Assembly: GCA_947177165.1 (NCBI GenBank)
Contig: CAMWTP010000029.1
Location: forward strand, 1 to 64,000
Length of the DNA stretch: 64,000 nt
Direction of reading: 5' to 3'
Origin: an uncultured Lachnospiraceae bacterium
GTDB lineage: Bacteria; Bacillota; Clostridia; Lachnospirales; Lachnospiraceae
Shown: piece after piece, positions 20,540 through 26,209 of the stretch
How the letters are laid out: each line of letters starts with the position of its first letter
How positions within the stretch are numbered: position 1 is the first letter of the stretch
Translations under genes and position numbers: made by a program
The notes under the pieces: generated by a model
Told to the model about the DNA's origin: nothing
The model's input: only the letters and a program-made list of their open reading frames with translations
Database searches by the model: none

Positions 20540-22324
20540 ATGGCGATCAGGACAAAGCTTCCGATTGGAATTGAAAATTTTAAGGAAATACGTACACAGG
20601 GGTACTATTATATTGATAAGACAGGGATGATTAAGGATCTATTAGAAAATTTAGGAAAGGTACATTTGTTCACACGTCCAAGACGGTTTGGAAAGACCCT
20701 GAATATGAGTATGCTGAAATATTTTTTTGAGACTGGCAGTGACAGCGCGCTTTTTGATGGACTTGATATTTCTAATGAAAAACAGCTCTGTGAAGAGTAT
20801 ATGGGGAAATTTCCGGTAATTTCCATCACTTTAAAGGGTGCTGTAGGAGGGAATTTCGCAGAAGCGAAAGGAATGCTTCGGAGAATTATAGGGAAAGAAG
20901 CGATGCGGTTCCAATTTCTGATGCAAAGCGACAGACTGTCAGAAACCGAACGCAATCAGTATGAGGCACTCGTTAATACAAATAAAACAGGTGCATTTAC
21001 AATGTCAGATGAACTATTGAAGGACAGTTTGCAGATATTGTCACAATTTTTGCAGAAACATTACGGGCAAAATGTGGTTATTCTGATGGATGAATATGAT
21101 GTTCCTCTTGATAAAGCATACCAGTCAAATTATTATGATGCTATGGTGGAGCTGATTAGGAGTCTGTTTGGAAATGCATTTAAAACGAACGACAGCCTGA
21201 ATTTTGCAGTGTTAACGGGATGTCTTAGAATATCTAAGGAAAGTAATGTCTCGGCTATTGCCGAGACATCGGAAAAACGCTTAAAGCGTTTTTCTCAGAC
21301 ATCTCCCTTAGGAGATGTCTTGTTTACTGGTTTGAATAATTTTTGTGTATACACAGTAAAAGATGTTCAATATAATGAATATTTTGGATTTACAGATAAA
21401 GAAGTCAGGGAAATGCTGGAATATTATGGATTTATGGAGAAATATGACACTGTCAGGGAGTGGTACGATGGATACCATTTTGGGGAACTTGATATCTACT
21501 GTCCATGGGACGTGGTGAGTTACTGCCATGCCCTGAAAATGAATGCATCTGTGGAACCGCAGAATTACTGGGTGAATACGAGTGGTAATGATATCATCAG
21601 AAGCTTTTTGGGCAGAGCAGGCGCGACGACCAGGAATGAGATCGAACAGTTGATCAATGGGGGCAGTGTCAGGAAAATGATACATCAGGAGCTGACCTAC
21701 AGGGATTTGGATTCCAAGCCGGATAATCTGTGGAGTATTTTATTCACAACAGGTTATCTGACGCAGAGCGGCGCAGAGACTGGGGAACTGACAGGACTGG
21801 TTATTCCAAACAAGGAGATACAGTGGATCTTTGTCCAGCAGATTCGTGAGTGGTTTAGGGAGCAAACGACACGGAATACAGATAAACTGGAACGTTTTTG
21901 CAGGGCGTTTCAGGAAAATGATGCCACGGCTGTCGAAAAAGGATTCAATGATTACCTTGGGGAAATGATCAGTATTCGTGATACAGGCGTCAGGAAAGGG
22001 ATGAAAGAGAATTTTTATCACGGTCTTTTGCTTGGTATTCTGGGACATATGGATGAATGGATCGTCCAGTCAAACGCCGAAGCAGGAGATGGTTACAGTG
22101 ATATCAGCATCGAGATCAGACGGAGAGAGATCGGTATCGTAATTGAGCTAAAATATGCTGAGAATGGTGCGTTTGAGGATGGATGTAAGGAAGCGATGCG
22201 GCAGATTAAGGACAGAAGATATGAAGAGGCATTGATCAAGGAGGGCATGCACACCATATATCGGTTTGGAATTGCGTGCTATAGGAAACAGTGCAGAGTT
22301 GTGTCTGAAAAGCGGGAAGCGTAA
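20540..22324 (+). CDS. AAA-ATPase-like / PD-(D/E)XK nuclease-domain protein
   Basis: A 594-residue member of a large, mobile family common in gut Firmicutes and Bacteroidetes. The N-terminal AAA-like domain has IGIENFKEIR, YYYIDKTGMI and the atypical P-loop RPRRFGKT (about 46-53). VVILMDEYDVPL is the Walker B region. The C-terminal PD-(D/E)XK-like domain has DGYSDISIEI and GIVIELKYA. The function is unproven; a nuclease or defence role has been suggested for the family. Residues about 236-260 are a foreign in-frame insertion (see the repeat entry) that splits the conserved KESIFTGLNN motif. The gene is otherwise intact. Confidence 0.88.
   Translation: MAIRTKLPIGIENFKEIRTQGYYYIDKTGMIKDLLENLGKVHLFTRPRRFGKTLNMSMLKYFFETGSDSALFDGLDISNEKQLCEEYMGKFPVISITLKGAVGGNFAEAKGMLRRIIGKEAMRFQFLMQSDRLSETERNQYEALVNTNKTGAFTMSDELLKDSLQILSQFLQKHYGQNVVILMDEYDVPLDKAYQSNYYDAMVELIRSLFGNAFKTNDSLNFAVLTGCLRISKESNVSAIAETSEKRLKRFSQTSPLGDVLFTGLNNFCVYTVKDVQYNEYFGFTDKEVREMLEYYGFMEKYDTVREWYDGYHFGELDIYCPWDVVSYCHALKMNASVEPQNYWVNTSGNDIIRSFLGRAGATTRNEIEQLINGGSVRKMIHQELTYRDLDSKPDNLWSILFTTGYLTQSGAETGELTGLVIPNKEIQWIFVQQIREWFREQTTRNTDKLERFCRAFQENDATAVEKGFNDYLGEMISIRDTGVRKGMKENFYHGLLLGILGHMDEWIVQSNAEAGDGYSDISIEIRRREIGIVIELKYAENGAFEDGCKEAMRQIKDRRYEEALIKEGMHTIYRFGIACYRKQCRVVSEKREA
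21246..21320 (+). repeat. 75-bp triple-hairpin palindromic element inserted in frame
   Basis: Three perfect stem-loops lie end to end inside the AAA-ATPase gene. They are 21246-21255/21260-21269 (10 bp, loop TATT), 21272-21282/21284-21294 (11 bp, one-base centre) and 21297-21306/21311-21320 (10 bp, loop CTTA). ATGTCT occurs at both ends. The length is exactly 25 codons and it contains no stop in the used frame. Removing it joins codons that read KES-M-FTGLNN, the expected family motif. It resembles in principle the protein-coding palindromic elements of Rickettsia, with no evident sequence relation. Confidence 0.85.
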
Positions 22325-25900: not shown

Positions 25901-25958
25901 AATCAGGAAATCTTTCTGAATGGAAATATTTTTAATCAGAAAGATTTTCTGATTTTTT
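25901..25958 (+). terminator. Rho-independent terminator after the AraC-GyrI gene
   Basis: A 19-bp stem (25901-25919 with 25936-25954, one G-T pair) with a 16-base loop is followed by a run of six T. It directly abuts the -35 box of the next promoter. Confidence 0.9.
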
Positions 25959-25959
25959 C

Positions 25960-26030
25960 TTGACAAATATATCGGCAGGTGATATATTAAATGCATGATA
26001 TATCAGATAGTGATATATCGTGAGACGATG
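25960..26030 (+). promoter_or_regulatory. Promoter with repeated TGATATATC operators
   Basis: TTGACA (25960-25965), a 17-bp spacer and TATATT (25983-25988) form the promoter of the DUF6440/PadR unit. Four copies of a TGATATAT-type half site lie within and after it, in both orientations. They include the perfect palindrome TGATATATCA near 25997 and TGATATATCG near 26011. These are good candidates for autoregulation by the PadR-like protein encoded downstream. Confidence 0.7.
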
Positions 26031-26047: not shown

Positions 26048-26209
26048 ATGGAACGTTTTGAGAAAGTTTACAGTCAGGGAATGATTGATGTAGTTGAAAT
26101 CTGGGTTGACACAGAAACAGGTGTCAATTATGTGTTTCACAGGAATGGAAACGCAGCAGGTTTTACACCCTTGCTTGACAAGGATGGAAAGCCGGTCGTT
26201 ACACCATAA
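26048..26209 (+). CDS. DUF6440-type small protein
   Basis: A 53-residue protein starting MERFEKVYSQGM, with the segments WVDTETGVNYVF and AGFTPLLDKDGKPVV. These match my memory of the small DUF6440 family found in many Firmicutes. The function is unknown; the short beta-rich pattern suggests a compact binding fold. ATG 26048 follows AGGGAGGA by 6 bases, an excellent site. It is the first gene after the operator-rich promoter and lies 51 bp before a PadR regulator, so it is likely under the control of that protein. Confidence 0.8.
   Translation: MERFEKVYSQGMIDVVEIWVDTETGVNYVFHRNGNAAGFTPLLDKDGKPVVTP

Follow-up and report, generated by a model that had tools for sequence, protein, structure and literature searches.

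A palindromic triple-hairpin unit at one conserved codon of DUF1703-family genes in Lachnospiraceae, apparently gained several times

Introduction

To our knowledge, most known palindromic inserts within protein-coding genes come from Rickettsia and Wolbachia, and their way of moving is not known. Small hairpins with no gene of their own also make up the extragenic REP and BIME repeats, which are mobilised by Y1 (RAYT) transposases. Homing introns and inteins insert again and again at a single conserved position in a gene, which is found in occupied and in empty copies. Rickettsia palindromic elements (RPEs), as the reports on them describe, are about 100–150 bp long and lie in many unrelated genes as well as outside genes (PMC10969869, PMC3767692). 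PARCELs are described as coding units of 25 residues whose DNA has dyad symmetry and for which shuffling between genes has been suggested (PMC2996958).

Here, we analyse a 75-bp triple-hairpin element in a stretch of 64,000 nt (the window) from an uncultured bacterium of the Lachnospiraceae. The earlier note on this DNA likened the element to RPEs. In behaviour the likeness to the described RPEs stands, the element being short palindromic DNA that lies in frame in a protein gene with insert-free orthologues; it fails in that the unit is 75 bp long and occupies a single codon position in one gene family, no copy having been found in spacers or unrelated genes among the 38 genomes of the genus. 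Restriction to one codon of one family points to site-restricted or homology-guided spread and not to free transposition. With the PARCELs of the report cited above, the unit shares a coding length of about 25 residues and palindromic DNA, but those are arranged in tandem and many of them lie in membrane-targeted proteins, whereas the Lachnospiraceae unit is single and lies in a predicted AAA-ATPase/nuclease. Small hairpins without a gene recall REP and BIME repeats, and the genus has a repeat with the stem of hairpin 2. Unlike REP/RAYT systems or a MITE derived from IS200/IS605, however, the unit occurs with no Y1 transposase detected in two of three carrier genomes, and the hairpin-2 stem, not the whole unit, is what is dispersed. 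Finally, apparent repeated gain at one conserved site is homing-like, but the unit encodes no endonuclease or other driver, gives no sign that splicing is needed, and has no clear co-converted flanks. The unit is not described in the literature that we searched, a search outside which most subscription journals fell.

Results

A triple-hairpin insert in frame within the host gene

The host gene, the element and its target flanks are as follows (carriers have the insert, and empty relatives lack it).

20540..22324, plus strand: DUF1703-family host gene, 594 aa, an open reading frame with AAA-ATPase_like (PF09820) and PDDEXK_9 (PF08011) by Pfam
21236..21245, plus strand: left target flank AAGGAAAGTA, codons K-E-S and one base, from the empty-site comparison
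21245..21322, plus strand: 78 nt or 26 codons, N236–L261, replacing one Ile codon of empty relatives, from the empty-site comparison
21246..21320, no strand assigned: triple-hairpin element, 75 bp, from stems, folding and further copies (G000 C6, G000 C19, G014 C191, G017 C417)
21246..21269, no strand assigned: hairpin 1, 10-bp stem 21246–21255/21260–21269, 4-nt loop
21272..21294, no strand assigned: hairpin 2, GAAAAACGC/GCGTTTTTC stem, 21272–21282/21284–21294
21297..21320, no strand assigned: hairpin 3, 10-bp stem 21297–21306/21311–21320, 4-nt loop
21323..21340, plus strand: right target flank TTTACTGGTTTGAATAAT, F-T-G-L-N-N with Leu codon TTG, from the empty-site comparison

The two Pfam domains of the host protein (E values 6.4e-46 for PF09820 and 1.3e-15 for PF08011) form the architecture that is described as DUF1703 (PMC6387759). 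PADLOC and NCBIfam models gave no match. AlphaFold models of three sequences had a mean pLDDT of 40 and were of no use for placing the insert, and the only match to a solved structure had an E value of 0.13.

The stems of the three hairpins are all perfect and lie end to end, and hairpin 2 can be read in two ways, with a stem of 11 bp around a 1-nt loop or one of 10 bp around a 3-nt loop. As RNA, the 95 nt spanning the element fold at −47.1 kcal/mol (z −9.27; 0 of 200 shuffles as good), and the DNA fold of the element region has a z of −11.7 against shuffled sequence. Stems of at least 9 bp number 12 in the window, compared with 0–2 per simulated sequence, and the element alone in the window is a triple of such stems spaced by at most 12 nt; ten 64-kb first-order Markov sequences contained no stem triple. 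The coordinates and the folding agree with the earlier description of three perfect stem-loops of 10, 11 and 10 bp that fill 21246–21320 in frame. At the gathering threshold, Rfam has no match within the window.

When stems of at least 8 bp are admitted, the window has one further triple, at 25934–26019. The first of its three inverted repeats resembles a terminator of the upstream gene, and the other two, of the GATATATC type around TTGACA, are operator-like and lie just upstream of the ATG at 26048.

Many empty relatives align to residues 1–235 and 261–end of the window protein at adjacent coordinates of their own, which gives the length of 75 bp or 25 codons that had been proposed from the sequence of this gene. 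The element begins at the second base of a codon, and its length is a multiple of three. Judging by the open frame, the insert is presumably read through as 26 residues. Across the five copies described below, a structure of 30 pairs has 97.3% of its cells paired, with changes on both sides at two pairs. The covariation signal is weak, being reached by 39 of 500 shuffles, and loop changes among the copies alter amino acids.

Five copies in three genomes of the genus

The unit is present in five copies in three of the 38 genomes of the genus, with three copies in the window's own genome, G000 (5.95 Mb in 247 contigs, 95.5% complete, 7% contamination), and the others in G014 and G017. In G000, a DNA search returned contigs C29 (the window), C6 (93% identical over 95 nt) and C19 (79%), while the copies in G014 and G017 came from a DNA search of 60 relatives including G000 and then from a covariance model run on the 38 genus genomes. 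All five are from draft assemblies, in which copies may be missing, and G014 and G017 are labelled MAG. Every copy lies in a DUF1703 gene, at the same codon and without an in-frame stop, and each gene has one unit. The C19 copy (L003) is a remnant with a frame of 222 codons, whose apparent gene start continues straight into the region of KES; the insert of this copy is free of stop codons, and some of its stem pairs are broken. The palindromic insertion that the earlier note proposed is borne out by the empty sites in relatives and by the further copies in G000, G014 and G017, and the last two contradict the possibility that related genomes hold no other copy.

The DUF1703 family is large in G000, with 40 PF09820 matches, 36 of them over the cut-off (one only with its neighbours) and some of them fragments. 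Seven of the 38 genus genomes have at least 30 matches to the window protein, many genes matching twice.

Outside DUF1703 genes, DNA and covariance searches of the 38 genus genomes gave no full unit above the zone of weak hits. The seven weak covariance-model hits outside the carriers (E 0.08–0.92) are other hairpins or other sequence; specifically, those in G021 and G033 belong to a different repeat with one hairpin in common, and those in G011, G012 and G002 are other sequence. Under strict filters, the covariance model found no other convincing copy in a set of 392 genomes from the order. This search left five more hits (E 0.005–0.02), of which L038, L039, L041 and L042 are single or unrelated hairpins at loci from which FTGLNN is absent. 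The fifth, L040 (positions 1473–1553, G241 C6), is a different triple from another family of the order, with perfect hairpins of 11, 9 and 12 bp end to end.

A 40-residue probe matched G000 alone in the order sample of 392 genomes, and plasmids and phages contained no copy of the unit. The hairpin-2 pattern picked out 17 stretches in GTDB r220, two of them known carriers and the other 15 with a single hairpin only; among these 15, L063 and L049 are weak hits to the whole model (E 0.01 and 0.037). In viral contigs the same pattern returned three stretches with single hairpins, and these contigs held no close DUF1703 relatives. Neither in the order genomes nor in the GTDB r220 scan did the residues of the insert occur in an unrelated lineage with codons varying in the ordinary way.

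The insert takes the place of one isoleucine codon

All five copies lie between KES and FTGLNN. The motif had been given in the earlier note as KES(I/M)FTGLNN, and its Ile is indeed what relatives have, but KESM as the ancestral form finds no support: of 67 distinct empty sites, a collection rather than a census, 66 have Ile (ATT 37, ATC 21, ATA 8) and one has Val (GTC), and ATG occurs at none. Deleting 21246–21320 yields AGT ATG TTT (KES-M-FTG), and since ATG is absent from the 67 empty sites, an insertion into ATG had no target there. The carriers all read A, 75 nt and TG where empties have the Ile codon, and the final TG or G is either part of what is transferred or a product of the junction. 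Across 45 loci (44 distinct genes), the site has only the Ile form or the 75-bp insert.

The Leu codon of FTGLNN (window 21332–21334) is TTG in four of the five carriers (window, L002, L003 and L006), compared with 2 of 44 empty FTGL sites; this enrichment (Fisher p 3e-4, before correction) concerns one of nine codons looked at. The third positions of L006 near the TTG agree with those of its empty relative L114.

The RNA folds of L001, L003 and L006 contain a weak fourth hairpin formed by the right junction and the target (window 21321–21338), and those of L002 and L005 do not.

Carriers are scattered among empty relatives

The whole-gene tree comprises 43 proteins, with the insert columns removed, and includes the four intact carriers, L001, L002, L005 and L006. 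Parsimony counts four changes on this tree, and its well-supported branches force all four. A single clade of carriers is rejected, with a log-likelihood lower by 129 and a p-AU of 0.0045. Specifically, L002 is the sister of empty L130 (99/99) and L006 that of empty L114 (99/96), while L001 groups with the empties L097 and L099 (98/99) and L005 stands beside L112/L103/L107 with weaker support (69/99).

Because the genes are mosaic, separate trees were built for the N-terminal and C-terminal halves, with 37 rows each after six distant or partial rows were dropped. Four changes are counted on each, the well-supported branches force two and three, and a single carrier clade is rejected on both. 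The two trees disagree with one another. On the C-half tree, one group holds L002, L005 and L006 together with two empties, L120 and L130, and L114 no longer stands next to L006; with three carriers and two empties grouped in this way, fewer than four gains are possible. The remnant L003 belongs to another subfamily, and its nearest gene, L152 (G007), is empty and 82% identical to it over 79 residues. Taken from these trees, the unit apparently entered one conserved site in several independent gains, whose exact number the mosaic genes do not fix.

The insert is far less diverged than the genes that carry it

Among the four intact carriers (six pairs, L003 being left out), the insert differs at 2–9 of 78 positions (2.6–11.5%), whereas 65–84 of 124–151 fourfold sites (52–60%) differ in the same pairs of carrier genes. 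The high identity between carriers ends at the edges of the unit. Furthermore, L005 and the empty L098 differ at 4 of 60 positions on the left and 6 of 60 on the right, with the insert cleanly between, and L005 looks like an L098-type gene carrying a clean insert.

A run test for shared segments covered 37 genes in all 666 pairs. The best shared segment spans the site in none of the six carrier pairs and in 14 of the 666 pairs overall, among them three pairs of L005 with an empty gene (for example L098, −64 to +92) and one of L006 with an empty gene (L101). Significant segments shared by carrier pairs lie away from the site, at −393 to −211 for L001/L006 and at +477 to +604 for L005/L006.

The flank windows compare the four intact carriers with 18 empties of the subfamily. 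Carrier–carrier identity is higher than carrier–empty identity by 0.3–6.6 points in eight of eight windows within 180 nt. L001 and L002, both from G000, are identical at 28 of 30 bases from −60 to −30 and over the first 21 bases of the right flank, and L005 and L006 have 93% identity over the first 60 bases of the right flank. The sharing within these two pairs could reflect longer tracts than the copying route proposed below predicts, or plain kinship.

A long gene-conversion tract was considered and set aside, the flank windows and the run test having no clear transferred tract.

A genus-wide repeat shares the stem of hairpin 2

The stem of hairpin 2, GAAAAACG/CGTTTTTC, occurs in 24 of the 38 genus genomes, at 0–27 places per genome; G000 has 12, three of which are the in-gene units. 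The reversed control of this pattern hit three genomes, once per strand. Among the copies of this hairpin outside the unit that were read, most have a longer and different loop. At 44 places with the stem, read by eye and without gene annotation, it mostly comes after a long hairpin, and many of the places continue with a third hairpin and then a Shine-Dalgarno-like sequence before an ATG; a few, L177, L182 and L194 among them, deviate from this plan.

The genus-wide repeat, composed of the long hairpin and the GAAAAACGC..GCGTTTTTC hairpin, is found at L195, L202, L167, L192, L203 and L193 (G000, G032 and G021), and L193 is a tandem array of it. For 11 hairpin-repeat loci, Rfam returned seven matches with E values of 0.0027–0.8, all under the gathering scores.

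The patterns of the other two hairpins are much rarer. That of the hairpin-1 stem occurs in carriers only, at four places in three of the 38 genus genomes (reversed control, one genome), the C19 copy having drifted out of it. The inner stem of hairpin 3 occurs in seven of the 38, at one place each, three of them carriers and four other places (reversed control, one genome). The stems of hairpins 1 and 3 are thus outside the genus-wide repeat and nearly unique to the unit. The common stem suggests that the unit may have arisen from the genus-wide GAAAAACG repeat, and convergence of hairpins built of A/T runs may also account for the likeness.

Discussion

The insert is a real and unusual feature. 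Palindromic inserts as a kind are already known, and the unit itself differs by its restriction to one site. Scattered carriers, low divergence of the insert, clean flanks and empty sites in close relatives together support transfer as a discrete unit, which has probably happened repeatedly. As an explanation of the whole, we propose that an enzyme-less palindromic unit of about 75–78 nt passes from one DUF1703 paralogue to another, enters the same codon every time and is read through in frame, a proposal to which we give close to an even chance.

For the route, we tentatively favour homology-guided copying in which the hairpins escape mismatch repair, and here we stop somewhat short of even confidence. 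By this route, an occupied and an empty paralogue would undergo homology-guided strand exchange, the unpaired insert would fold into hairpins and be left alone by mismatch repair, and the flanking mismatches would be repaired back to the sequence of the recipient. The palindrome alone would then be passed on, and only into a homologous site; confinement to that site is what homology-guided copying between paralogues leads one to expect. Intragenic recombination between DUF1703 paralogues has been reported (PMC6387759). The common GAAAAACG hairpin repeat may have contributed to the first insertion, although it offers no source for hairpins 1 and 3. In RecA-type exchange, conversion tracts under about 20 nt are unusual, and this counts against the route, as do the slight excess of flank identity among carriers and the segments that two carrier pairs have in common elsewhere in the gene. 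The absence of a clear transferred flank is likewise a difficulty, which would be met if the loops escape repair; hairpin loops do so in yeast.

The site-specificity could instead come from a trans-acting enzyme, a recombinase, nuclease or transposase to which the hairpins and the conserved KES/FTGLNN DNA would serve as recognition sequences, the target being a long one, and which would integrate the unit in the manner of a homing element or site-specific MITE. Five of five copies at the same nucleotide position, in at least two subfamilies, with clean junctions and an identical replacement of one Ile codon each time, are what such an enzyme would leave, and we regard this reading as unlikely but worth keeping in view. 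The element itself, however, has no gene and encodes only about 25 residues, and the ORF lists around the five copies have no shared neighbour by eye. Pfam, run on six neighbours only, identified an IS4/5-type transposase on the contig of L005 and left three ORFs beside L006 without a match. The Y1 transposase (PF01797), present in 20 of the 38 genus genomes, numbers 0 in G000 and G014 and 3 in G017, counts that go with completeness of 96%, 86% and 97%, respectively; it was rejected as the driver, being undetected in two of the three carrier genomes. There is also a small chance that the activity comes from the DUF1703 proteins, which would then work on conserved DNA in the very genes that encode them, perhaps cutting or unwinding the empty KES/FTGLNN site.

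Another reading takes the insertion to be single and old, inherited vertically, reshuffled by ordinary recombination among paralogues and then precisely lost in most lineages. The mosaic family and the C-half grouping of three carriers with L120 and L130 would suit it, but each loss would need to have been exact and to have brought back an Ile codon, the divergence of the insert is set against several times as much at fourfold sites, and L001 and L003 are placed elsewhere on the trees, which together make it improbable. Free transposition of a Rickettsia-type palindrome or a REP/BIME unit, the in-gene copies being survivors, appears very improbable. The unit is palindromic and in frame, and its hairpin-2 stem is common to the genus-wide repeat. 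That repeat lacks hairpins 1 and 3, however, and the full unit is confined to DUF1703, above the zone of weak hits, in the 38 genus genomes. Free transposition was rejected after searches of the genus, the order, plasmids, phages, GTDB r220 and viral contigs gave no dispersed copies of the full unit. The slightest chance goes to retention for a function, be it of the hairpins in RNA (regulation, ribosome bypass) or of the 26 residues in the protein. The high proportion of paired cells, the two double-changed pairs and the lack of in-frame stops speak for it, whereas the covariation is weak, most members of the family are without the unit, and the loop changes alter amino acids. Translational bypass in particular was set aside, the frame being open in all copies and the length divisible by three.

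What we describe is a tiny unit without a gene that returns to one codon of one family, in Lachnospiraceae. Donor, target and site are all known, and the route of its spread is thus open to testing with a laboratory reporter. If the DUF1703 proteins did act on their own genes, the palindrome would be an enzyme-less homing element, a parasite driven by the product of its host gene. If being overlooked by repair is all that lets palindromes spread between paralogues, this would be a general and cheap route by which selfish DNA may survive in multigene families.
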